DNA of 64,000 nucleotides from positions 2,480,001 through 2,544,000 of the forward strand of contig NZ_PEBF01000001.1 in assembly GCF_002742625.1 (NCBI RefSeq). The letters are read 5' to 3'. The stretch comes from Caulobacter sp. FWC2. Lineage in GTDB: Bacteria > Pseudomonadota > Alphaproteobacteria > Caulobacterales > Caulobacteraceae. Below are positions 1,800-12,832 of this stretch, one piece after another. A model generated the notes under the pieces. That model was not told where the DNA came from, ran no database searches, and saw only the letters and a program-made list of their open reading frames with translations. Numbering within the stretch: the first letter of the stretch is position 1; the number at the start of each line of letters is the position of its first letter. A program made the position numbers and the translations under genes.

Positions 1800-2336
1800 A
1801 TGGAACCGCACATTGTCCGACTCGGCACGTCTCGGAATGGGGCGGACGCCATCGCCGACCTGCACACCCGCAGTCGCCAGGTCGCCTATCGCGGTCTCTA
1901 TGGCGACGCCCATCTGGACCACGCGCTGCCGGAGATCTCGCGGACCGTCTGGCGCAAGCGGTTCGAGACCTTCGACCCGGCGACCGACCTGATCCTGGCG
2001 GCGATGGAGGGCGGCGAGCCGGTCGGCCTGGCCTACGCCTCGTTCAAGCTGAATCCATCCGTGGGCGCCTTACTCGACAATCTGCACGTCGCGCCCGAGC
2101 GCTAGGGCGGCGGGCTTGGCACGGCCCTGCTGGCCGAGGTGGCGCGGTGGCTGATCGAGGACCACGGCGGCGCGCCGCTGCACCTGGAGGTCTACGCGCC
2201 CAACCAAGACGCGCTCGGGTTCTACATCCGCAAGGGCGGCGTGGAGACGGCGCGCTATCGCGAGACCGCCCCCGGCGGTAGGGACGTCGATGTCGTGCGC
2301 TATCGCTGGGCGCGGCCTGACGATCTGCTGGCTTAG
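1800..2336 (+). pseudogene. GNAT-family N-acetyltransferase interrupted by an in-frame TAG
   Basis: Reading one frame from ATG 1800 to TAG 2334-2336 gives a full-length GNAT fold of about 178 codons, except for an amber codon at 2103-2105. The stop falls inside motif A, the acetyl-CoA pyrophosphate loop: VAPER, stop, GGGLGTALL. In intact relatives that position is usually Arg, Gln or His. The second half keeps normal GNAT features (YAPNQDALGFYIRKGG near the end), and codon choice stays gene-like on both sides, so decay looks recent, or the base is a sequencing error. As given, the 101-residue product lacks the cofactor site and should be inactive. The 3' end overlaps the convergent neighbour by 4 bases. 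Confidence 0.8.
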
Positions 2337-3166
2337 CGCTCCAGCTCGGTGGCCATGGCCGAGGTCAGGGCGCCTAGTTGATCCGGCCCGATGCGATCGG
2401 TCTTCAATTTGTAGAGGCCGCGCAGATAGGCCTTGTCGGAAGCCGTCATCCGCTTGGGGCCGCCCGGCTCGACAAACAGGTTCAGGATCGAGGCCTGGTC
2501 GGGCTGGGTGGCGTCGGGGCGGATGTCCGCCAGGGCGACCAGACTGACATAGTCGGCCAGGGCGCCGATCTCGACCCCGTCAGTCTTGCGCGCGTCCACG
2601 ACCACCAGGCTGTAGTGCAAACGGCTGGCGACCGGCTGGAGGATATGGCTGTCCGGGGCCCGCATGGCGCGGATATCGGTGTCACCGGACGAGATGTCGC
2701 CATAGGCCGGAACCTCGCCGGTGTAGCTGAGCCAGCGCACGGGATTGGTATTGGCCTTGAACCGGTCGATGCGTGGAAGCGAGATGGTGTCGTAGCGAAT
2801 CTTCCCGCGCCTGCGCGCCTGATCCAGCATGAGCTCTGGCTCCCGCGAGAACAGGATCATCAGGTTCGGATAGCACTTCTGGGTCTCGAACCGCAGGCCG
2901 ACATCGCCCGCGATCTGGCGCAGCCGTGACCGCACATAGTCGTCAACGATCTTGCCCGCGCCAGCCACCACCGGGCAGAGCTGCGGCGAACGGCGGCTGA
3001 CCATACCGTTCGATAGCTCGGTCGCCGCGCGGACGTAGTTCATGGTGCGGGCGCGGTTGGCGGACTTGACCACCAGAGTGTCAGAAACCAACGGCGGCGC
3101 ATCCTGCGCCACCGCCGCCATCGGAACCATCGCGGCCAGGACCAGGCCGACAGCCCAGGACCGCAT
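2333..3166 (-). CDS. secreted protein of unknown function, paralogue of the next gene
   Basis: 277 residues starting MRSWAVGLVLAAMVPMAAVAQ, a clear Sec signal peptide with likely cleavage after AVAQ, so the product should be periplasmic or exported. No enzyme motif was recognised. The C-terminal half (VVVDARKTDGVEIGALADYV, then ILNLFVEP and AYLRGLYKLK) aligns with the upstream gene, including the conserved ALADYV..V.LAD block, so the two arose by tandem duplication. One cysteine each sits near the CPVVAGAG and KCYPN segments and is also present in the paralogue, so a disulfide is possible. Only 11 bases separate the genes, suggesting one operon. Confidence 0.85.
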   Translation of the reverse strand: MRSWAVGLVLAAMVPMAAVAQDAPPLVSDTLVVKSANRARTMNYVRAATELSNGMVSRRSPQLCPVVAGAGKIVDDYVRSRLRQIAGDVGLRFETQKCYPNLMILFSREPELMLDQARRRGKIRYDTISLPRIDRFKANTNPVRWLSYTGEVPAYGDISSGDTDIRAMRAPDSHILQPVASRLHYSLVVVDARKTDGVEIGALADYVSLVALADIRPDATQPDQASILNLFVEPGGPKRMTASDKAYLRGLYKLKTDRIGPDQLGALTSAMATELER

Positions 3167-3177
3167 CGCGCCCTCAC

Positions 3178-3861
3178 CTATCGCGTGCGGTAGACCGCGC
3201 GGAGATAAGCCCGGTCCGCCTCGGTCATGGCCTCGGCCTTGCCGTTGTCGAACAGGTTCAGGATCGTGCCGTCGGCCGGCGCCGCGCGAGCTTGAACATC
3301 GGCCAGCGAGACCATGGTCACATAGTCCGCCAGGGCCGAGACCTTGACGTCCGCGGCCTTGTTGGCGTCGACCACGACCAGCGAGTTGTAGGGGCGCGCG
3401 TCCCGCGTCTTCATCCCTGGGGTCGCACTGCCGTGCATCCAGCGGACCGGCTGAGTGCTGGTCTTGAACTGCTGGGCGCGCTGGGCGGTGACGCCGCTAT
3501 AGTTGAACCGCTTGTCGCGCGAAGCCGCATTCAACAGTTGGTCAGGCTCCGATGAGAACAAGACCACCACATTGGGCTCGCAATCCCAGCGCGCGTACTC
3601 GGCGCCGACATCCTTGGCCACCTGGCGCATGCGCGCGGCGACGTAGTCGTTCACCTCGGCCGAGGCGCCCCGGACCAGCGGGCAAACGCCTTGGCGGGCG
3701 CCGCCCGTCGGGCCATTGCCGCTCCGCAGCCGCGCCATCTCCACAGCGAGGCCGTTCTCCCGCCGCGCATCGCCCATCATGGTATCGCTCTGACGCGCCG
3801 AGACAGCAGAACCGGACGCCAGCAGCGTCATCACACCGATACCCAGAAGCACTCGTCGCAT
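3178..3861 (-). CDS. secreted protein of unknown function, first of a tandem pair
   Basis: 227 residues from ATG 3861 (MRRVLLGIGVMTLLASGS), chosen over a longer frame because GGAGG sits just upstream and a signal peptide begins exactly there. The mature part shares with the downstream paralogue the CPLVRGASAEVNDYV segment, a WDCEPNVVVLFSSEPDQLL block, VVVDANK followed by ALADYV, and a C-terminal AYLRAVYRTR. No known domain was recognised. Shared signal peptides and two conserved cysteines suggest a soluble periplasmic pair. A promoter should lie in the bases just above 3861. Confidence 0.84.
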   Translation of the reverse strand: MRRVLLGIGVMTLLASGSAVSARQSDTMMGDARRENGLAVEMARLRSGNGPTGGARQGVCPLVRGASAEVNDYVAARMRQVAKDVGAEYARWDCEPNVVVLFSSEPDQLLNAASRDKRFNYSGVTAQRAQQFKTSTQPVRWMHGSATPGMKTRDARPYNSLVVVDANKAADVKVSALADYVTMVSLADVQARAAPADGTILNLFDNGKAEAMTEADRAYLRAVYRTR

Positions 3862-4133
3862 CGTGTATCCTCCAAAGGTGAGCGAAGGAGAACACAACCT
3901 CTGACTGAGAACAAGCGTATCGCGCAGCTAAAACGTAAGCGGCGGGCGATCGCTTTCCGGACGGTCGATCTCCTGCGACGGCGCGGTCATCCTGACAAAC
4001 GGCGACCAGGGGCCGGGTCGCGGGCCTTGTGGGTCGGGTTCACCTCGACGTAAGGCTCAGCCGGTGCTCGTCTAGACTTGGCGCCCCGGTTGTTTGGCGC
4101 GCCTTCCCGCCGATGTAGGATTTTTGTCCGACC
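3862..4133. other. divergent intergenic region upstream of a two-component system
   Basis: About 270 bases between the secreted-protein pair (minus strand) and the regulator operon (plus strand). It must contain both promoters. Nothing firm is visible: no sigma-54 element, no strong dyad, no RNA gene. A short leader frame begins just after it, at 4134. Confidence 0.4.
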
Positions 4134-4208
4134 ATGACCGACACGGCCTCGCCCAAGCCAGACCGCCACCGGAACAGCGAAAGTCAGCCGCGCATGGCCG
4201 CGGCGTGA
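4134..4208 (+). CDS. possible 24-residue leader peptide overlapping the response regulator start
   Basis: ATG 4134 opens a short frame (MTDTASPKPDRHRNSES, ending RMAAA) whose TGA at 4206-4208 overlaps the GTG start of the response regulator in a GTGA overlap. Such overlaps are typical of translational coupling in this genome. The peptide is hydrophilic and resembles nothing known. It may be a real small coding region that couples translation of the regulator, or chance. Confidence 0.35.
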   Translation: MTDTASPKPDRHRNSESQPRMAAA

Positions 4209-4861
4209 AACTCTTGCTCGTCGAGGACGACGCCATGCTGGGCGCGGCGATGAAGCGGGGCCTGGAGAAGGCCGGCTATGTCGTCGACTGGGCCCAGGAT
4301 GGCGACGAGGCGCTGGGAGGGCTCAGCGCTCAAGCCTATGAGACCGTGATCCTGGACCTGTCGCTGCCGCAGGTGGATGGCATCGAGGTGCTCAAGCGGA
4401 TGCGCGCCCGCCGCGACACCACGCCGGTCATCATCGTCACGGCGCGGGGACGTGGCGATCAGAAGATCGACGGGCTGGACGCGGGCGCCGACGACTATCT
4501 GGTCAAGCCCTTCGACCTCGACGAACTGCTGGCGCGCATCCGGGCACAGATCCGCCGCGCGGAGGGGCGGGTCAACGACGTGCTGCGGGTCAAGGACGTG
4601 GCCCTGGACATCGGCGCGCGTCTGGTGCGGCGTGGCGATGCGGCCGTGCAGCTGACCGCCAAGGAGCTGCGGGTGCTCGATGTCCTGATGCGCAGGGCCG
4701 GCCGCTTCGTCAGCAAGGACGACCTGGAGAACGCGCTCTATGACGCCGCCGGCGGGGTCGAGAGCAACACTATCGAGGTGACCATCTACGCGCTGCGCAA
4801 GAAGCTCGGGACCGACTTCATCCTGACGGCCCGCGGGCTGGGCTACATGGTGGGCAAATGA
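4205..4861 (+). CDS. OmpR/PhoB-family response regulator
   Basis: 218 residues from a GTG start, chosen because the receiver domain begins immediately (KLLLVEDDAMLG). Receiver residues D8-D9, phospho-acceptor D51 (VILDLSLPQVDG), T79 and K101 (YLVKPFD) are all present. Residues about 125-218 form a winged-helix DNA-binding domain (LTAKELRVLDVLMRRAGRF, later NTIEVTIYALRKKLG). Best family match is the QseB/PmrA/TctD type that pairs with envelope-sensing kinases. The 3' end overlaps the kinase start by ATGA. The eight-gene operon starting 103 bases after the kinase is a plausible target, by position only. Confidence 0.93.
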   Translation: MKLLLVEDDAMLGAAMKRGLEKAGYVVDWAQDGDEALGGLSAQAYETVILDLSLPQVDGIEVLKRMRARRDTTPVIIVTARGRGDQKIDGLDAGADDYLVKPFDLDELLARIRAQIRRAEGRVNDVLRVKDVALDIGARLVRRGDAAVQLTAKELRVLDVLMRRAGRFVSKDDLENALYDAAGGVESNTIEVTIYALRKKLGTDFILTARGLGYMVGK

Positions 4862-6273
4862 AGTCGCCCCGCCCTCTTGCTCCCCGCACCTTCGATCCAC
4901 GGGCCTCGGTCACCGGTCAGCTCTTCCGCCGGGTGACCGCCCTGCTGATCGCCATCATGATCACCGTCTTCGGGATGATGTACTGGACCGCCCGCAACGA
5001 GATCGACAAGGTCTATGACGGCCAGCTGATCACCGGCGCCAACGTGCTGCGCGCCCTGATGAGCGAAGAGATCAAGGAGCGCGGTCAGAACCGGTCTGGC
5101 GTCTCGCTGGAGATCGGCGACGAGTGGCTGAGCGACGAGGACCGCAAGGCCTTCGACGCCTATGCCGACTGGCGGATGTTCAGGATCTGGAAGGACGGGC
5201 GCCTGGTCCTGGGCTCCGACACCGGCCCCAGCCTGGCCCCGCCGCGCGGCCAGAAGGGGTTCGAGACCGCCAAGGTCGCAGGCAAGCATTGGCGGATCTT
5301 CAACCTGCCGGTGGGCGAAGCCGGCGTCACCATTCAGGTGGGCGAGCGCACCAGTATCCGGTCGGTGCTGGTCAAACAGATCCTGGTCGAGCTGGCCATC
5401 CCGCTGATGCTGGTGCTGCCAGCCAGCCTGGCGCTGATCTGGCTGGCGCTGAAGGACGGCCTGCGGGCGGTGCGCGCCCTGGTCGCGGCGATCGGCGATC
5501 GCGGCTCCCGCGACCTCAGCCCGCTCGACACCCGGACCTGGCCGCTCGACCTGCAGCCGATGGTGCGGTCGGTCAACGACCTGCTGACCCGTCTGCAGCG
5601 CAGCTACGAACACGAGCGGCAGTTCATCGACAGCGCCGCCCACCAGCTGCGCACGCCCCTGGCGGCGCTGAGCCTTCAGGCCCAGCTGATCGCGCAGGAG
5701 GACGATCCGGTCGAGCGCGCGACTCAGGTCCAGCAACTGCGCGAGGGCGTGGCCCGGGCCAGCGAACTGACCGAACAGTTGCTGACCCTGGCGCAGTTGG
5801 GACCGCGGATCGACCGGGACCTGACCGCCGATCCGCGCGCCGAGGCCACCGCCGCCCTGGCCGAGATCGCCGTCATCGCCGCCGCCAAGGGCGTGGCTCT
5901 GGCGCTGGAGGGCCAGACGCCGCGGGTCCAGGGCGACCCGGCCCTGGTCCGCCTGATCCTGGCCAATCTGATCGAGAACGCCGTCTGCCACGCCCCGCCT
6001 GACTCGGAGGTTCAGGTCCTGCTCTCCAGCGATCGCAACCTGGGCTGGGTGACCGTTTCCGACCACGGTCCGGGGATACCTACCGACGAGCGCGAGCGCG
6101 TCTTCCAGCGCTTCTTCCGCGGCGCCAACGCCCGTGGATCGGGCTCAGGACTAGGCCTGGCGATCGTCGAGGAGGCCTCCCGCGTCCTGGGCGGGCGGGT
6201 TATTCTTGCGGATCGCGCGGACGGCGCCCCGGGTCTGGAGGCTCGCTTCGGCCTGCCAAAGGCCGCTTCCTAG
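4858..6273 (+). CDS. sensor histidine kinase (QseC/TctE type)
   Basis: 471 residues. An N-terminal membrane segment (about residues 26-44, LLIAIMITVFGMMYW) is followed by a periplasmic sensor of about 130 residues and a second membrane segment near residues 180-200. The HisKA helix has H262 in FIDSAAHQLRTPL, and the HATPase domain has N-box LANLIENAVCHA, G1 DHGPGIP and G2 GSGLGLAIV. It should autophosphorylate H262 and pass phosphate to D51 of the regulator encoded just upstream, with which it is translationally coupled. The signal is unknown. Confidence 0.93.
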   Translation: MKSPRPLAPRTFDPRASVTGQLFRRVTALLIAIMITVFGMMYWTARNEIDKVYDGQLITGANVLRALMSEEIKERGQNRSGVSLEIGDEWLSDEDRKAFDAYADWRMFRIWKDGRLVLGSDTGPSLAPPRGQKGFETAKVAGKHWRIFNLPVGEAGVTIQVGERTSIRSVLVKQILVELAIPLMLVLPASLALIWLALKDGLRAVRALVAAIGDRGSRDLSPLDTRTWPLDLQPMVRSVNDLLTRLQRSYEHERQFIDSAAHQLRTPLAALSLQAQLIAQEDDPVERATQVQQLREGVARASELTEQLLTLAQLGPRIDRDLTADPRAEATAALAEIAVIAAAKGVALALEGQTPRVQGDPALVRLILANLIENAVCHAPPDSEVQVLLSSDRNLGWVTVSDHGPGIPTDERERVFQRFFRGANARGSGSGLGLAIVEEASRVLGGRVILADRADGAPGLEARFGLPKAAS

Positions 6274-6376
6274 ACGGTCCCTCCGACAGCGACCGAAATC
6301 GCCTCATCATTGCCCGCTTCTCTTCAGCTTCGCATCAGGTTCGTCGCCCACACCTCGCGCCGAACCGGAGCGGCGC

Positions 6377-7042
6377 ATGCAAGTTTTCTGTGATTTCGAC
6401 GGTACGATCGCCAAGGTCGACACGACCGATCTGGTCCTGACCCGTCTGGCCGACCCGGCCTGGGAGGACCTCGAGGACCAGTGGAAGCGCGGCGAGATCA
6501 CCGCTGCGGCGTGCATGCGCGGCCAGGTCGCCCTGATCGGCGGCGACGACGCCGCGCTCGACGCCGTGCTCGACAGCGTCGAATTGGTCAACGGCTTCGC
6601 GGATTTCGTCGCCTGGTGCCAGGCCAGCGCCGTGCCGCTGACCGTGGTCAGCGACGGCGTCGACTATTTCATCGCCCGGATCCTGAGCCGCCACGGCCTG
6701 GGATATCTGCCCGTCGTCGCCAACCGCCTGGTCGGTGACGCGGTCGCTGGACGCCGGCTGGAGCAGCCCTGGTCGCGCGCCGGCTGCGCGGCCGGGTCGG
6801 GGGTCTGCAAGTGCCAGGTCGCCTCGACCGACGCCCAGACCGACAACCTCATGGTCTTCATCGGCGACGGGCGCTCTGACTTCTGTGTCTCGGGTCGCGC
6901 CGACCTGCTGTTCGCGCGCGACAAGCTGGCCGCCTACGCCCGCTCACGCGCCATGCCGCACCACGAATTCTCGGACTTCCACAGCATCACCACGACGCTC
7001 GCCGCGGTCCACGGCCGCCTGGCCCGTCGCGCCGCCATCTGA
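6377..7042 (+). CDS. HAD-family phosphatase (MtnX/phosphoserine-phosphatase-like)
   Basis: 221 residues from ATG 6377, preceded by CGGAG. Motif I is CDFDGTIAKVD with nucleophile D6 and acid/base D8. Motif II is the VVSDG serine region near residue 95. Motif IV is the FIGDGRSDFCVSGRAD acidic loop near residue 160. The alpha-helical cap of about 80 residues fits the HAD-IB/MtnX and phosphoserine phosphatase class, so a small phosphorylated metabolite is likely. It is the first gene of an eight-gene run and sits 13 bases before the aminotransferase, suggesting that phosphate removal and amination act on one pathway. The substrate is not predictable. Confidence 0.85.
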   Translation: MQVFCDFDGTIAKVDTTDLVLTRLADPAWEDLEDQWKRGEITAAACMRGQVALIGGDDAALDAVLDSVELVNGFADFVAWCQASAVPLTVVSDGVDYFIARILSRHGLGYLPVVANRLVGDAVAGRRLEQPWSRAGCAAGSGVCKCQVASTDAQTDNLMVFIGDGRSDFCVSGRADLLFARDKLAAYARSRAMPHHEFSDFHSITTTLAAVHGRLARRAAI

Positions 7043-7055
7043 TCGGAGTTTCCCC

Positions 7056-8447
7056 ATGTACGACGCCGAACACCCCGTCCTCGACGAAGCCGCCCTGCGC
7101 GACCTCGAGGCCCAGTACTGCTCCTACGGCGATACGGTCCACTATCTGCCCGACCCGAAGTTCTTCACGGGCTGCGAGGGCTCGTTCATGTACGACGCGC
7201 AGGGCCGCGAGTATCTGGACCTGCAGATGTGGTACTCGGCCGTCAATTTCGGCTACCGCAATCCGCGCCTGACCGCCGTCGCCCACCGCCAGCTCGACAC
7301 CCTGCCGCAGGTCGCCAGCCAGTACCTGCACCGCGAGAAGGTTGAGCTCGCCGCGATGATCGCCCAGGACGCCGAGAAGAAGTTCGGCCGCAAGGGCCGG
7401 GTCCATTTCAATGTCGGCGGCGCCCAGGCCGTCGAGGATTCGCTGAAGCTGGTCCGCAACGCCACCGGCGGCAAGCAGCTGATGTTCGCGTTCGAGGGCG
7501 GCTATCACGGCCGCACCCTGGGCGCTTCGGCGATCACCTCGTCGTACCGCTATCGCCGCCGCTACGGCCACTTCGGCGACCGCGCCCAGTTCATCGAGTT
7601 CCCGTACCACTTCCGCGGCCCCAAGGGCATGAGCAAGGAAGAGTACGGTCACCACTGCGTCCAGAAGTTCGCCCGCCTGTTCGAGACCGAATATAACGGC
7701 GTGCTCGACACCAAGACCGGCCAGGCGGAATACGCCGCCTTCTTCATCGAGCCCATCCAAGGCACCGGCGGCTACGTCATCCCGCCGATGAACTTCTTCT
7801 CCGAACTGAAGAAGGTCCTCGACCAGTACGGCATTCTGCTGGTGGTTGATGAGATCCAGATGGGCATGTGGCGGACCGGCAAGCTGTGGTCGATCGAACA
7901 CTTTGGCGTGCAGCCGGACGTACTGGTGTTCGGCAAGGCCCTGACCAATGGCCTGAACCCCCTGTCGGGCGTCTGGGCCCGCGAAGAGCTGATCAATCCG
8001 GAGATCTTCCCGCCCGGTTCGACCCACTCGACCTTCAACGCCAACCCGATGGGCACCTCGGTGGCGCTGGAGACCCTGCGCATGACCCACGAGGTCGACT
8101 ACGGCGCCCAGGTGATGGCGAAGGGCGCCTACTTCCTGGAAGGCCTGAAGGAGTTGCAGAAGCGCTGGCCGCAGATCGGCGACGTCGACGGCCTGGGTTT
8201 GGCCCTGCGCGCCGAGATCTGCGAGGCGGACGGCTTCACGCCCAACAAGGTCCTGCTGAACAAGATGGAAGAGGTCGCCATGTCGGGCGAGCTCGAGGTC
8301 GACGGCAAGACCATGGGCCTGATCCTCGACGTCGGCGGCTACCACAAGAACGTCATCACGCTCGCGCCCTCGCTGGAGATCAGCAAGGACGAGATCGACC
8401 TGGCCCTGAAGCTTCTGGATGCGGTGCTGCGCCGGTGCGTCGACTGA
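7056..8447 (+). CDS. PLP-dependent class-III aminotransferase
   Basis: 463 residues. The PLP-binding lysine is K294 in VFGKALTNGLNPLSG, the ring-nitrogen aspartate lies in VVDEIQMGMWRTG, and the phosphate-binding segment is FNVGGAQAVEDSLKL. Overall it follows the GABA/ornithine/diaminobutyrate/omega-amino-acid aminotransferase family (fold type I). It should move an amino group between an omega-amine or amino acid and a keto acid. GGAG precedes the ATG, and the last 13 bases overlap the arginase-like gene. Specificity is unknown; the neighbouring arginase-fold enzyme suggests a diamine or guanidino compound. Confidence 0.9.
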   Translation: MYDAEHPVLDEAALRDLEAQYCSYGDTVHYLPDPKFFTGCEGSFMYDAQGREYLDLQMWYSAVNFGYRNPRLTAVAHRQLDTLPQVASQYLHREKVELAAMIAQDAEKKFGRKGRVHFNVGGAQAVEDSLKLVRNATGGKQLMFAFEGGYHGRTLGASAITSSYRYRRRYGHFGDRAQFIEFPYHFRGPKGMSKEEYGHHCVQKFARLFETEYNGVLDTKTGQAEYAAFFIEPIQGTGGYVIPPMNFFSELKKVLDQYGILLVVDEIQMGMWRTGKLWSIEHFGVQPDVLVFGKALTNGLNPLSGVWAREELINPEIFPPGSTHSTFNANPMGTSVALETLRMTHEVDYGAQVMAKGAYFLEGLKELQKRWPQIGDVDGLGLALRAEICEADGFTPNKVLLNKMEEVAMSGELEVDGKTMGLILDVGGYHKNVITLAPSLEISKDEIDLALKLLDAVLRRCVD

Positions 8448-9370
8448 GTGATCGCCTGACCCCGGTGCTCCTGGACCTCGACGGCGCGTTCGAGGACCAG
8501 ACGCTGCTGGCCGCTGAAACCCTGGCCGCGGGCGGTCACCAAGTGACCGCCCGCGACCTTGGTCCGGCCCTGCGCCTGTGGAGCCGCCCGCCCGCGCTGG
8601 AAGCCCTGCGCGAGCGCCTGCGGGCGGGTGTCCAGACCAGCCCCAGCCTGGTGTTCACCGGCTCGGGCGACTTTCACCACGTCTCGCCGCTGCTGATCGA
8701 GCGGGCGATCGAGGCGTCGTGGAGCGAAAGCGTGACGGTGCTGCATTTCGACAACCACCCCGACTGGGTGCGGTTCGAGGACGGCATGCACTGCGGTTCG
8801 TGGGTCGGGACGGCCGCGCGCCTGCCCGGCGTGGCCAAGGTGGTCACGGTCGGTGTGTGCAGCGACGACATCGCCCATCCGACCGCCAAGGGCGCGCATC
8901 TGGACCTGGCCGACGACGGTCGGCTGGAGCTGTACGCCTATCGCGCGCCGGACGGCGGCGCGGCCGTCCGCGTGGGCGCCGCCGCGTGGCCGACGGTCGA
9001 GAGCCTGGGCGAGGAAGCCTTTGTCGACTTCCTGGCTTCGCGCATCGAGACCGACGCCGTCTATGTCACGATCGACAAGGACGTCCTGCGACCGGAAGAC
9101 GCCGCCACCAACTGGGACCAGGGGCGCACCAGCCTGCGGTTCCTGGAGGCGATGCTCGACCGCATCCTGGCCGAACGCCGCCTGATCGGGGCCGACATCG
9201 TCGGCGACTGGAGCCGTCCGCGCTATGGCGGCGGCGCCGTCGCGGCCCTGCTCAAGCAAGGCGAGGCGTTGCTGGACCAGCCCTGGTCGCCGCCTGCGCC
9301 CCAGGCCCGCCAGGTCAATGAGGGCGTCAACCGGCGCCTGTTGCGCCTGTTCGTGCAGGTCGCCGCATGA
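8435..9370 (+). CDS. arginase/agmatinase-family (ureohydrolase-fold) enzyme
   Basis: 311 residues from GTG 8435; GTG 8465 is an alternative. All three metal-ligand clusters of the binuclear manganese ureohydrolase fold are visible: GDFHH (residues 78-82), DNHPD (106-110) and IDKD with D214/D216. Family members hydrolyse arginine, agmatine, guanidinobutyrate, formiminoglutamate or related amidines. It differs enough from true arginase in the surrounding motifs (DNHPD in place of the common DAHxD) that a different amidine or amide substrate is likely. Overlaps both neighbours, so it is tightly coupled in the operon. Confidence 0.85.
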   Translation: MRRLSDRLTPVLLDLDGAFEDQTLLAAETLAAGGHQVTARDLGPALRLWSRPPALEALRERLRAGVQTSPSLVFTGSGDFHHVSPLLIERAIEASWSESVTVLHFDNHPDWVRFEDGMHCGSWVGTAARLPGVAKVVTVGVCSDDIAHPTAKGAHLDLADDGRLELYAYRAPDGGAAVRVGAAAWPTVESLGEEAFVDFLASRIETDAVYVTIDKDVLRPEDAATNWDQGRTSLRFLEAMLDRILAERRLIGADIVGDWSRPRYGGGAVAALLKQGEALLDQPWSPPAPQARQVNEGVNRRLLRLFVQVAA

Positions 9371-9732
9371 GCCGTATCCTGTCCTCGGCCGCCTTGGGTC
9401 TGGCCTTTTGCGTCGTGACCGAGATCACCCGCGAGCTGTGCTTCAAGGCCGCCGCCAACCGGGCTCAGGACGGTTCGAACTACGTTCTCGACCTGGCGCG
9501 CCAGCCGGTCCTGTGGCTCGGGCTGGCGTTCTGGATCAGCGAGACCATCGCCCTGGTCCGCGTCCTGGAGATCGCGCCGCTGTCGGTGGCCTATCAGATC
9601 ACCACCTTGCCCTATGCCGGCATCCCGATCGCCGGCGCCCTGGTGTTCCGCGAGCGCCTGACCCGAGGTCAGGTCGCGGGCGCGGTGCTGATCGGGCTGG
9701 GCGTGATCCTGGTCGGAGCCTCCGGCCTATGA
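9367..9732 (+). CDS. half-size DMT-superfamily (EamA/SMR-like) membrane protein A
   Basis: 121 residues with four predicted membrane helices: residues about 5-25, 48-66 (VLWLGLAFWI), 75-95 (SVAYQITTLPYAGIPIAGAL) and 100-119 (GAVLIGLGVILVGASG). The last two match the EamA/SMR pattern, including the FRERLTRGQ loop between helices. Half-size members work as dimers; examples are SMR drug exporters and the ArnE/ArnF lipid-sugar flippase. A second half-size protein five genes on in the operon makes a heterodimer plausible. ATGA overlaps at both ends. Confidence 0.8.
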   Translation: MSRILSSAALGLAFCVVTEITRELCFKAAANRAQDGSNYVLDLARQPVLWLGLAFWISETIALVRVLEIAPLSVAYQITTLPYAGIPIAGALVFRERLTRGQVAGAVLIGLGVILVGASGL

Positions 9733-10571
9733 CCGTTCAAGACCGCAGCTTCCGGCTGAAGGCCGAGGGCCGTCGCGGCGTATTGCTGATCCACGGCCTG
9801 ACTGGCGCCCCCGACGAGATGAAGTTCCTGGCCAGGCGGCTGCACCGCCAGGGCTTCGACGTCATGGTCCCGCAGCTGGCCGGACACGGCGCCGACATGG
9901 CCACGCTGCTGCGCAGCACCTGGCGCGACTGGCTGGACTCCGTGGTCGCCGCCTACGACGCCTACGCCCGCGAGGTCGACGAGATCTTCGTTGCTGGCGT
10001 CTGCGTCGGCGGCGCTCTGGGTCTGGAGCTGGCCGCCCAGCGCCCCGAGATAGCCGCCGCCGTCGTCTATTCGATGACCTTCGAATACGACGGCTGGAAC
10101 ATGAAAGGCTGGATGAAGGGCGCCTACCTGATCCAGGCGATCGCCAACCTGCCGCTGGTGCGCCGGATCAGCTTCGCCGAGCCGTATCCTTTCGGCCTCA
10201 AGGACGAGCGCCTGCGCGAACGCGTGGCGCGCGCGCCGGAAGCCTTCATCGAGGGCTCTCTGGACCGTCTGCCGTTCGGAGCCCTATTCCAGATGTATCG
10301 CCTGGGCCGGCGCCTAGAGCACGACGCCAGCGCCATCGACATCCCCTGCCTGATCATGCATGCGCGCGAAGACGACATGAGCGATCCGCGCAACGCCTGG
10401 CGCTTGAAGCGCGCCCTGGGGCCAAAGGCCGAAGTGCGGCTGTTCGAGGACAGCTACCACATGCTGCACGTCGACAAGGAGCGCGCCCTGGTCGCCGACG
10501 AGACCGCCGCCTTCTTCCTGCGCCACGCCGCCAGCGCCCCGGCCTTCGCGGCCGAGCCCGTACATGCTTGA
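9729..10571 (+). CDS. alpha/beta hydrolase of carboxylesterase type with cysteine nucleophile
   Basis: 280 residues. The fold is clear: oxyanion-loop LLIHGLTGAPDEM near residues 19-31, nucleophile elbow GVCVGG with C92 in place of the usual serine, acid around D215-D219 (REDDMSDP), and histidine H244 or H247 (SYHMLHVDKE). The closest general shape is the Est30-like short carboxylesterase group. A Cys-Asp-His triad is normal in dienelactone hydrolases and PHA synthases but unusual here, and may mean acyl transfer or a thioester step. It sits between a transporter half and an acyltransferase in the operon, so it may act on an acylated product. Confidence 0.83.
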   Translation: MTVQDRSFRLKAEGRRGVLLIHGLTGAPDEMKFLARRLHRQGFDVMVPQLAGHGADMATLLRSTWRDWLDSVVAAYDAYAREVDEIFVAGVCVGGALGLELAAQRPEIAAAVVYSMTFEYDGWNMKGWMKGAYLIQAIANLPLVRRISFAEPYPFGLKDERLRERVARAPEAFIEGSLDRLPFGALFQMYRLGRRLEHDASAIDIPCLIMHAREDDMSDPRNAWRLKRALGPKAEVRLFEDSYHMLHVDKERALVADETAAFFLRHAASAPAFAAEPVHA

Positions 10572-11652
10572 AGCCCGTGTCGTCGACACCCTGGCCGCCG
10601 TCGACCCCGCCGCCTGGGACGCCCTCTTCCCCGGCGAGGTCGAGCGCTATGACTATCTGGCCGCAGTCGAGGCCGCCGGCCTGGAAGGCTTCGCCTGGCG
10701 CTATGTCCTGGTCGAGGAGGATGGGCGGCTGCTGGCAGCCGCGCCGGCCTTTCTCACCCGGTACGCCCTGGAAACCACCGTCGACGGCGCCGCCAGGACT
10801 ATCCTGCGCGCGATCGGCCGGGTCGCGCCGGGACTGACCACGCTGCGCCTGGCCTGCCTTGGCTCACCGTGCACGGAGACCGCCCAGCTCGGACTGTCGC
10901 CCGACGCCGACCCGGTCGTTCTACTTGGCCTGATGATGAAGACCTTCGAAGACGCTGCGCGACATGAGCGCTGCGGCCTGATGGCGGTCAAGGACGTGCC
11001 GGCCCCGCATGCCGCCCTGTGGGCCAATGCCCTAGGTCCGGCCGACTACCAGCCGATGACCGGCCTGCCGCTGGCCAGCCTGGAGGTCGATTTTCCCGAC
11101 CAGGAAACCTATCTGGCGCGGCTGTCTCCGGCGACCCGCAAGGACATGCGCCGCAAGCTGCGCGCCGCCCAGGTCGTGAGGGTCGAGGTTCGCCGCGACC
11201 TGACAGGCCTCGAGTCCGAGGTCATGGCCCTCTATGCCGAGACGAGGGCGCGCGGCGACCTGCAATTCGAGACCCTTACGGCGGACTATTTCACCGGCGT
11301 GCTGGACCGCATGGGCGAGCGCGCTGCCTGCGTGCTCTATTTCGTCGACGACGTGCTGTTGGCCGCCAACCTAGTCCTGATCGACGCCGGAACCCTCGTC
11401 GACAAGTTCTTCTGCATGCGGGCCGAGGGCCGCGACCACAACCTCTACTTCCTGAGCTGGTTCACCAACATCCGGCTTTGCCTCGACCTGGGCCTGACCC
11501 GCTATCAGAGCGGCCAGGCCGCCTATGCCAACAAGCTGCGACTAGGCAGCGGCCTGATCCCCACGGCCATGTATTTTCGCCACCGCAACCCGTTGCTCAA
11601 CCGCGCCCTGCGCTGGCTCGCGCCGCTGCTGGCGCCGGACGTCCCCCATTGA
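10564..11652 (+). CDS. FemAB/BioF2-type GNAT acyltransferase
   Basis: 362 residues arranged as two GNAT-like halves. The C-terminal half has SPATRKDMRRKLRAAQ, a long helix, and the YFLSWFTNIRLCLDLG and YQSGQAAYANKLRLGS segments seen in COG3146/BioF2-domain proteins (peptidoglycan- or amino-acid-conjugating FemAB relatives). Such enzymes join an amino acid or acyl group to an amine. The start overlaps the hydrolase by 8 bases. The likely role is conjugation of the aminated compound made by the upstream enzymes; this is inference from context. Confidence 0.75.
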   Translation: MLEARVVDTLAAVDPAAWDALFPGEVERYDYLAAVEAAGLEGFAWRYVLVEEDGRLLAAAPAFLTRYALETTVDGAARTILRAIGRVAPGLTTLRLACLGSPCTETAQLGLSPDADPVVLLGLMMKTFEDAARHERCGLMAVKDVPAPHAALWANALGPADYQPMTGLPLASLEVDFPDQETYLARLSPATRKDMRRKLRAAQVVRVEVRRDLTGLESEVMALYAETRARGDLQFETLTADYFTGVLDRMGERAACVLYFVDDVLLAANLVLIDAGTLVDKFFCMRAEGRDHNLYFLSWFTNIRLCLDLGLTRYQSGQAAYANKLRLGSGLIPTAMYFRHRNPLLNRALRWLAPLLAPDVPH

Positions 11653-12074
11653 CCCCACCTGAACCGGTCGTCGATCCGGCGCCCCCGACCACCTTCCGCG
11701 CGCGATGGGCCAAACGCTTGCTGTTCCTGGCCCTGCCCCTGCTGGGCCTGGCCTATCAGGTGACCGCCAAGGAGACCGCCCAGGTCATGTCCGGCGTCCC
11801 GTTCGGCAGGCTATGGCTTTCGAAGGTGCTGACCGTGCCGTGGGCCGAGGCGCTGATCGCGCTGGAGATCATCAGCTTCTGCGCCTGGATGGTGGTGCTG
11901 TCCGAGATCAAGCTCAGCGAAGCCTTCCCGCTGTCGGCGCTCAGCTACGTGCTGGTCGTGGCGGCCAGCTGGACCGTCTTCCACGAGCCCGCCAGCCTGC
12001 TGCAGATCCTCGGCGGCGTCGCCATCCTCGCCGGGGTCTGGCTGATGGGCCGCTCCGGCGAACCGGCGCAATGA
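11649..12074 (+). CDS. half-size DMT-superfamily membrane protein B
   Basis: 141 residues from a TTG start (MTPPEPVVDPAPP) that overlaps the preceding stop; no ATG gives a complete first helix. Four predicted helices: about residues 23-40 (LLFLALPLLGLAYQV), 58-80 (ALIALEIISFCAWMVVL), 88-106 (FPLSALSYVLVVAASW) and 115-133 (ILGGVAILAGVWLMG). It is similar in plan to protein A but with an extra N-terminal tail and little sequence identity, so the pair may form an asymmetric, heterodimeric exporter or flippase, like ArnE/ArnF. ATGA overlap with the next gene. Confidence 0.75.
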   Translation: MTPPEPVVDPAPPTTFRARWAKRLLFLALPLLGLAYQVTAKETAQVMSGVPFGRLWLSKVLTVPWAEALIALEIISFCAWMVVLSEIKLSEAFPLSALSYVLVVAASWTVFHEPASLLQILGGVAILAGVWLMGRSGEPAQ

Positions 12075-12832
12075 GACCCAGCGCGATCGTCCTGGCCGCC
12101 TTCGTCGTCGTGAGCATGGCCAGCGCGGCCAAGGCTGAAGCGGGCTCGCCCGACTATGGTCCTTGGACGGTGGATGTCGGATTGATCTCCCGCACGCGCC
12201 CCGTCCATCTGGGATCGTCTCGCTACACGACCGATCTGCTGCCGATCGTCTCGGCCAGCTACGGCGACCTTGTGGAGTTCAGCCTCGACGATGGCCTGAC
12301 CGCCAGCCTGTGGCGCGGCGGCGGCTGGTCGGCTGGTCCTGTGGTGGAATACCGCCAGTCCTATAACGACCGCGTGCCCCGGCGGGCCTTCGTCATGGAA
12401 GACGCGGTCGAGGTCGGCGGCTTCGTGAAGCGCCTCACGCCCATCGGCGATGTCAGCCTGCGGGTGCGCAAGGCGGTCGACGGCTATGGCGGCTGGTCCG
12501 GCGACCTGGCGTTCGATACCGGCGCCCAGGTCTCGCCGCGCTGGAAGGTCGGCGCGCAGGCCCGTCTCTCGTGGGCCGACAGCAGCTTCTCGCGCGAGTA
12601 TTTCGGCCTGCGACGGAAAGCCGACCGGCCCCAGCAGCTGCCGCGCTTTGCCGAAAACGACTTCTACAGCGCCGGTCTGGAACTGGACGCCGCCCGGGCT
12701 ATTGGTCCGCGCACGGCCATCGTCGCCACGTTCAGCGAGGACCGCATCCTGGGCGAGGAGTGGCGCAGTCCGCTGCTGCGCACCCGCGACATGGTGACGT
12801 TCGGCTTGGGCCTGACCTACCGGTTTGGCTGA
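12071..12832 (+). CDS. MipA/OmpV-family outer-membrane protein
   Basis: 253 residues with a signal peptide (MRPSAIVLAAFVVVSMASAAKA) and alternating beta-strand patterns to the C-terminus, which ends FGLGLTYRFG with the terminal-aromatic-type strand used for BAM assembly (final residue Gly after Phe). The length and the early DLLPIVSASYGDLVEFSLDDG segment match MipA/OmpV. These proteins are outer-membrane scaffolds or small barrels. As the last gene of the eight-gene run, it may supply the outer-membrane step for a product exported by the two DMT proteins. Confidence 0.82.
   Translation: MRPSAIVLAAFVVVSMASAAKAEAGSPDYGPWTVDVGLISRTRPVHLGSSRYTTDLLPIVSASYGDLVEFSLDDGLTASLWRGGGWSAGPVVEYRQSYNDRVPRRAFVMEDAVEVGGFVKRLTPIGDVSLRVRKAVDGYGGWSGDLAFDTGAQVSPRWKVGAQARLSWADSSFSREYFGLRRKADRPQQLPRFAENDFYSAGLELDAARAIGPRTAIVATFSEDRILGEEWRSPLLRTRDMVTFGLGLTYRFG

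Follow-up and report, generated by a model that had tools for sequence, protein, structure and literature searches.

A conserved gene set with a PmrA-like regulator in Caulobacter sp. FWC2 and its relatives as a candidate inducible envelope-lipid pathway

An eight-gene operon of Caulobacter sp. FWC2 belongs to a gene set that is conserved in content and order among its relatives, is usually accompanied by its own two-component system and, where it is, follows a characteristic direct repeat. The operon lies on the + strand at positions 6377-12832 of a 64,000-nucleotide stretch (contig NZ_PEBF01000001.1, positions 2,480,001 to 2,544,000; hereafter, the window), which is part of a 5.5-Mb, two-contig genome. 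We propose, with a probability of roughly 50%, that the operon directs an inducible envelope-lipid pathway that works in an arn-like manner with none of the arn sugar enzymes. Such an inducible, membrane-directed pathway is suggested by the combination in one unit of a probable step of amine formation, a transferase, a pair of half-size drug/metabolite transporter (DMT) proteins resembling ArnE and ArnF, and a PmrA-like switch.

The listing of open frames agrees at every junction with the original prediction, which was made from the letters of this DNA and described eight genes on one strand, six of whose seven junctions overlap. The HAD and aminotransferase genes are separated by a 13-base gap, and the next six overlaps are 13, 4, 4, 8, 4, and 4 bases. 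The family names given there are also supported by Pfam, with DMT1 falling below the EamA cut-off. The two-component pair (4208-6273) and the repeat (6323-6343) are additional to that prediction. The features, with model scores in bits, are as follows:

4208..4861, + strand: OmpR-type response regulator (Response_reg, Trans_reg_C), closest curated family PmrA; GTG start, with a longer frame possible from 4094
4858..6273, + strand: sensor histidine kinase (2CSK_N, HisKA, HATPase), closest curated families QseC and PmrB; 4-base overlap with the regulator gene
6323..6343, + strand: probable response-regulator box TTCAGCTTCGCATCAGGTTCG, an 11-bp direct repeat that begins 54 bases ahead of the HAD gene
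6377..7042, + strand: MtnX-like HAD-IB phosphatase (DKMTPPase superfamily); Pfam HAD 46.3, cut-off 27
7056..8447, + strand: class-III aminotransferase dependent on pyridoxal phosphate (PLP); Aminotran_3 (PF00202) 261.2, cut-off 30.5
8435..9370, + strand: arginase-fold (ureohydrolase) enzyme; GTG start; Pfam Arginase (PF00491) 35.2, cut-off 22
9367..9732, + strand: DMT1, half-size DMT/EamA protein; EamA 22.4, below the cut-off of 28.2
9729..10571, + strand: alpha/beta hydrolase with a Cys nucleophile (GVCVGG); Hydrolase_4 75.9, cut-off 27
10564..11652, + strand: FEM, FemAB-like/GNAT transferase; FemAB_like 45.5, cut-off 27
11649..12074, + strand: DMT2, second half-size DMT/EamA protein; TTG start; EamA 30, cut-off 28.2
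12071..12832, + strand: outer-membrane barrel of the MipA/OmpV family, whose N-terminus is hydrophobic and signal-like; MipA (PF06629) 92.6, cut-off 24.2

A scan of named genomes returned 319 relatives of the arginase-fold protein, and the 80 best of these make up loci L014-L093. Conservation was counted over the 66 of these 80 loci that have at least 4.5 kb of flank on both sides of the arginase gene; the other 14 were left out. The HAD, class-III aminotransferase, alpha/beta hydrolase, and FemAB genes are each present in all 66 loci, as is the arginase gene by construction, because the loci were chosen by it. DMT1 and DMT2 are present in 64 of the 66, and in these 64 the order HAD, aminotransferase, arginase, DMT1, hydrolase, FEM, DMT2 is identical; L015 and L032 have no DMT genes at that place. 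The grouping is a conserved unit and not a product of chance, in keeping with the earlier reading of the genes as one unit; the search for co-conserved copies that had been proposed as a test of that reading does not refute it. MipA, the eighth gene, is facultative in relatives. Among the hosts are Caulobacter, Phenylobacterium, Brevundimonas, Asticcacaulis, Pleomorphomonas, Phyllobacterium, and Rhizobium, and the closest named relative by the arginase-fold protein, among the best 80 of 319, is a Caulobacter metagenome-assembled genome (83%; L014).

The distribution of the block is patchy. In a whole-genome search of 200 members of the order, 4 have the arginase-fold protein, with that of the window included; the three relatives share the same block, one of them (L012) without MipA. 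The aminotransferase was found in 9 of 41 genomes of the genus (E ≤ 1e-150) and in 26 of 398 genomes of the phylum (E ≤ 1e-100), in both cases including the window's own, and a profile search of the class gave matches in 11 of 385 genomes, full-length in three (G000, G510, and G463). Among 72,556 plasmid records, the arginase occurs in 47 and the aminotransferase (E ≤ 1e-120) in 34, all of them among those 47, which speaks for a dedicated enzyme. The 13 remaining arginase-bearing records belong to Roseomonas (11), Aureimonas, and Azospirillum. At E ≤ 1e-60, the aminotransferase was not found in any phage record.

The two-component pair stands beside the operon in 53 of the 66 loci. The best model of the window's regulator is PmrA, at 209 bits against a cut-off of 330, and the regulator is therefore not a PmrA equivalog; the kinase scores 203 against 475 for QseC and 151 against 314 for PmrB. 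We searched 140-bp upstream regions, that of the window included, for the form TCA[GT]-N7-TCA[GT] (TCAK-N7-TCAK). The repeat is present in all 55 distinct upstream regions of loci with the pair, 54 to 87 bp before the HAD gene, and upstream of the regulator gene in 0 of 55. In 100 shuffles of the regions (dinucleotide-preserving where the routine managed it, single-base otherwise), the repeat count averaged 1.26 and reached at most 6. Of the 19 regions scored as lacking the pair, two have the repeat (L031 and L048), and both have kinase genes near a contig end. Among additional loci of the genus, L184, which has the pair, also has the repeat, and L185, L186, and L187, which have FecI/FecR, do not (L187 is probably from the same genome as L023). 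We suggest that the regulator may bind the TCAK-N7-TCAK repeat.

Across the whole 5.5-Mb genome, a refined repeat pattern is matched exactly once, at the operon, and five times with two mismatches; a reversed control gave 0. Two of the two-mismatch sites may mark further regulon members. One (L171; G000:C1:1794656-1794676, - strand) precedes a glycosyltransferase-like frame, and the other (L174; G000:C1:4197467-4197487) adjoins a small, glycine-rich frame whose product looks exported, but is oriented the opposite way.

The gene set exists in two modular versions, which we counted over those 63 of the 80 loci whose sequence reaches 4.5 kb ahead of the arginase gene and 6 kb past it. Among the 50 loci with the two-component pair, MipA is present in 43, and neither an ABC permease nor FecI plus FecR in any. 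None of the 13 loci without the pair has MipA, whereas 12 have an ABC permease and 9 have FecI plus FecR. In this second version, FecI/FecR and an ABC-TolC exporter take the place of the regulator and MipA. Both versions are found inside the window's genus. The split is not universal, for pAspH13-3a, pDG3-1h, and Xanthomonas have two-component genes plus an ABC exporter. FecI-FecR replace the pair in L012:2963-7057, L017, L019-L021, L023, and L185-L187, several of which carry a TonB-receptor gene; that of L012 has, by reading, an N-terminal signalling region.

Active-site residues of the enzymes are conserved as follows. In the HAD phosphatase, an alignment of relatives shows conserved DFDGT, Lys, and GDGRSD. 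The protein passes the MtnX-like HAD-IB subfamily model (94.1 bits, cut-off 81.55) and fails the curated models of MtnX, a 2-hydroxy-3-keto-5-methylthiopentenyl-1-phosphate phosphatase (103.3 against 292 and 89.3 against 303.2). The aminotransferase is the most conserved member of the operon (median identity to the window protein, 78%), with the PLP lysine (Lys294) and Asp265 in all 82 aligned sequences. Position 435 is Thr in 81 of them and Ser in one; relatives of this fold (racemases) show Arg there, a residue that we take to bind a carboxylate. Near the C-terminal end of these 82 sequences, the carboxylate-binding Arg of class-III transaminases of the glutamate/2-oxoglutarate type is not present.

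The residues that we presume from arginase motifs to be metal ligands are present in the arginase-fold enzyme of the window and conserved at 97% or more in 86 aligned sequences. Its predicted structure (predicted local distance difference test [pLDDT], 88.1) matches a guanidinase, a guanidinopropionase, and arginases, so that the earlier view of the enzyme as more than a relic stands. Its scores are far below the curated agmatinase cut-offs (24.2 against 302 bits and 20.8 against 174.3). The alpha/beta hydrolase has a Cys nucleophile plus conserved Asp and His. Among 84 such hydrolases the nucleophile is Cys in 79, Ser in 2, and unscored in 3, and in more distant loci four of five hydrolases read GLSMGA; the Cys-nucleophile hydrolase of the original prediction thus holds for the window and most relatives but is not universal. 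A PhaC-like role of the Cys hydrolase is weakened by the Ser forms.

The predicted structure of FEM (pLDDT, 90.5) has the tandem-GNAT fold of FemX, streptothricin aminoacyl transferases, and MprF. Sbb17/Sba18 and FemX head its Foldseek matches, with lysyl- and alanyl-phosphatidylglycerol synthases further down, and acyl-CoA GNATs (2wpw and others) share the fold and are present in the same list. The other FemAB_like protein of the genome (L097) is encoded elsewhere, beside frames read as clpA- and glpQ-like, and aligns only weakly with FEM. We considered FEM as a CerS relative and member of the ceramide pathway and set this aside: FEM has no significant pairwise match to YghO of E. coli, the one presumed CerS counterpart compared, which was identified by position and has no Pfam match, to the families of FEM or otherwise. 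The best curated matches of DMT1 and DMT2 are ArnE (33 bits, cut-off 92) and ArnF (40.7 bits, cut-off 99), respectively, both below the cut-off. For MipA, a report on Pseudomonas aeruginosa describes the protein, under ParRS, as a proposed polymyxin (co)sensor (PMC10936184). Because of this proposal, and because MipA tracks the two-component pair, the role of MipA here may be in sensing rather than in exposing a product.

Genes related to lipids are frequent around the operon. Within 6.5 kb of the arginase gene, the 66 loci include a desaturase in 53, a cyclopropane-synthase-like protein in 39, a ketoacyl synthase in 6, and an acyl carrier protein (ACP) in 5. In the close relatives L014 and L184, a desaturase gene follows MipA; in the window none stands beside the operon, and none was found by a genome search run without a positive control. 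On plasmid pAt2788a of Agrobacterium fabrum (L113:16444-20912), the operon is followed by a cyclopropane-synthase-like gene, MipA, EptA, and DgkA. The repeat recurs 94 bp ahead of EptA, and the 24.9-kb stretch has six copies on both strands, three of which form a cluster before HAD.

In the pathway that we propose, the histidine kinase, perhaps with MipA as an outer-membrane sensor, would detect envelope stress such as cationic peptides, and the phosphorylated PmrA-like regulator would bind the TCAK-N7-TCAK box and turn the operon on. The aminotransferase and HAD phosphatase would convert a phosphorylated carbonyl precursor into a small, amine-bearing head group, which the FemAB/GNAT protein would link to an acyl (or aminoacyl) donor. 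Trimming or movement of acyl groups would fall to the alpha/beta hydrolase, and the arginase-fold enzyme would remove an amidino group to leave a free amine. The DMT1/DMT2 pair would flip the lipid across the inner membrane and so alter the surface charge. In some species, the chain may be tailored by the desaturase, the ACP and ketoacyl synthase, and the cyclopropane-synthase-like protein. The original prediction had arranged the proteins as making, conjugating, flipping, and exposing a product. Conjugation fits the fold of FEM and flipping fits the ArnE/ArnF-like proteins, but the exposing role given to MipA may be one of sensing. Its finer sequence of dephosphorylation, amination, and trimming of an amidine is conjectural, both as reactions and as an order; distant versions include HemL-like stand-ins and loci without an arginase match (see below).

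The arn operon (pmrHFIJKLM), which modifies lipid A with aminoarabinose under PmrAB, offers the closest parallel. Shared features are a PLP enzyme that would form an amine, two half-size DMT proteins whose nearest curated matches, below the cut-offs, are ArnE and ArnF, a PmrA-like regulator with an upstream direct repeat, and a plausible role against cationic peptides. In contrast, Pfam and NCBIfam searches of the eight proteins yielded no ArnA, ArnC, ArnD, or ArnT. The aminotransferase is of class III and not of the ArnB/DegT kind, and the operon has an extra HAD protein, ureohydrolase, alpha/beta hydrolase, and FemAB protein, with fatty-acid genes in relatives. MprF, which charges and flips lipids, shares the tandem-GNAT fold of FEM (also found in FemX), but the operon has a separate transferase and DMT pair and no fused membrane domain. 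NodF/NodE with NodA provide a special ACP, a ketoacyl synthase, and an N-acyltransferase. The Phenylobacterium and Xanthomonas versions likewise have an ACP and a ketoacyl synthase beside an N-acyltransferase-like gene, but the acyltransferase is of another family, and the window operon has neither of the two genes that are found in 5 (ACP) and 6 (synthase) of the 66 loci. With mipBA of P. aeruginosa, as presented in passages of PMC10936184, the operon shares a MipA gene adjoining a two-component system of the polymyxin-response kind; it differs in lacking a MipB gene and in that MipA ends a biosynthetic operon. The Caulobacter ceramide pathway (Spt, AcpR, AasR, CerR, and CerS; passages of PMC11324152) similarly assigns a dedicated ACP and an N-acyltransferase to an envelope lipid in the same bacteria, but no Spt-, CerR-, or AasR-like gene is among the eight, and FEM does not align with YghO.

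The original prediction knew of no described pathway with this set, and a word co-occurrence search of open-license PubMed Central papers, a scope that leaves out other wording and most subscription journals, likewise returned no description of it. A gene set that has a sensor of its own and is preceded by a conserved repeat recurs across Alphaproteobacteria and in Xanthomonas without an assigned product. According to passages of PMC11324152, the lipid A of C. crescentus carries no phosphates, and decoration of the arn or EptA type would therefore lack its usual target there. We suggest more tentatively, and as doubtful in its full extent, that an undescribed class of amine-bearing envelope lipids replaces aminoarabinose and phosphoethanolamine as the inducible defense against cationic peptides where alphaproteobacterial lipid A has no phosphates. 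Its builders would be the HAD protein, class-III aminotransferase, hydrolase, FemAB protein, and ureohydrolase, found also in a gammaproteobacterium and on plasmids. If the product is indeed an inducible surface lipid, it would add a route to peptide tolerance that is independent of lipid A phosphates. Families known by fold only (the arginase-fold enzyme, the aminotransferase subfamily, and the half-size DMT pairs) would thereby gain a function. With the repeat and a Caulobacter host, the proposal is directly testable.

More distant versions were drawn from a phylum-wide search with the aminotransferase, in which 20 of 25 other genomes were examined (E ≤ 1e-4, a limited set of queries, and some contig ends). 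HAD and an alpha/beta hydrolase are present in 18 of these 20 loci, an arginase match in 11, and an ACP with a ketoacyl synthase in 5; the stretch read in the other 9 has no arginase match. A universal core of HAD, aminotransferase, and hydrolase was rejected on the count of 18 of 20, the complete trio being absent in L160 (a contig end), L169 (56% identity), and Bartonella. One region of Xanthomonas sacchari encodes HAD, the aminotransferase, a ketoacyl synthase, an ACP, a GNAT, an arginase, a DegT aminotransferase, and two EamA proteins, together with the hydrolase, HlyD, an ABC ATPase, TolC, and a two-component pair. In Roseomonas (L112:7132-10623), Aureimonas, Azospirillum, and G463 (across these, L114:9448-10785, L122:7507-8847, and L116:12893-14215), a HemL-like class-III enzyme replaces the aminotransferase, a family assignment that was scanned for the Roseomonas protein only. 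A DegT aminotransferase adjoins the DMT pair in Roseomonas (L112) and Xanthomonas (L118).

The main rival to a structural membrane lipid is a secreted small molecule, such as a cationic lipid-like antibiotic, a surfactant, or a metal ligand, for which the DMT proteins or ABC-TolC would serve as exporters; we consider it rather unlikely. Such a product would suit the ABC permease (12 of 13) and FecI plus FecR (9 of 13) of the loci without the two-component pair, the TonB-receptor genes beside several loci, the exporter genes of X. sacchari, pAspH13-3a, and pDG3-1h, and the ACP and ketoacyl synthase of some loci. However, the ABC permease is absent from all 50 two-component loci counted, the regulator is of the PmrA/QseB kind, no carrier-bound assembly line was seen among the genes annotated or scanned, and desaturase and cyclopropane-synthase genes suit membrane lipids. 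An alternative that concerns one step and is compatible with the envelope-lipid pathway is that FEM uses aminoacyl-tRNA, as do FemX, the streptothricin transferases, and MprF, and so yields an aminoacylated amine or lipid instead of an N-acyl lipid. The ranking of its Foldseek matches favors such a donor, but the fold is common to acyl-CoA GNATs, and ACP, ketoacyl synthase, and desaturase genes accompany FEM in some species; we hold this, too, to be the less probable option.

Class-III aminotransferases and arginase-fold enzymes are typical of polyamine and guanidine catabolism, and the operon could serve such catabolism, with the envelope genes attached by accident. The structural matches of the arginase-fold enzyme to a guanidinase and a guanidinopropionase agree with this. 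Nevertheless, the gene order kept in 64 of 66 loci, the agmatinase score of 24.2 of 302 bits, the 9 of 20 aminotransferase loci without an arginase match, and the PmrA-like regulator with its repeat make this explanation very improbable. Catabolism of agmatine, guanidinobutyrate, or plain arginine in particular was rejected, given the agmatinase scores and a gene set unsuited to it. Serinol might be formed from dihydroxyacetone phosphate by the aminotransferase and the HAD protein, as in RtxA (passages of PMC3222319, which state no class for the aminotransferase of RtxA); we retain this as a lead.

Several observations weigh against the proposed envelope-lipid pathway. The version with FecI/FecR and ABC-TolC fits a secreted product equally well. 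The window operon has no acyl-chain gene (desaturase, cyclopropane-synthase-like, ketoacyl synthase, or ACP), and a simple hydropathy scan shows only two clear segments in DMT1. MipA is missing in 7 of the 50 two-component loci. A single one of the 112 loci searched, which include short and duplicate ones, has EptA/DgkA close to the operon, and a search of the window's genome, run with no positive control, yielded no EptA. The PmrA-like control is not universal, because Roseomonas and Aureimonas carry a kinase and a sigma-54-type regulator in place of the pair, and in Bartonella plasmids, which have the aminotransferase, GNAT, and arginase, neither HAD nor the hydrolase has a match nearby. The loci are related, mostly Rhizobiaceae, and the counts therefore overstate their independence. 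Moreover, the repeat form was noticed and defined on the same loci as were counted, and its exact genome match at the operon is by construction, since the refined pattern was written from these loci.

Two further observations, both made by reading, concern neighboring frames. On the - strand of the window at 2333-3897, upstream of the regulator gene, two adjoining related frames encode exported-looking proteins. In G582 (L163:5867-6918), a small cupredoxin-like frame adjoins an outer-membrane-like frame near the aminotransferase block.

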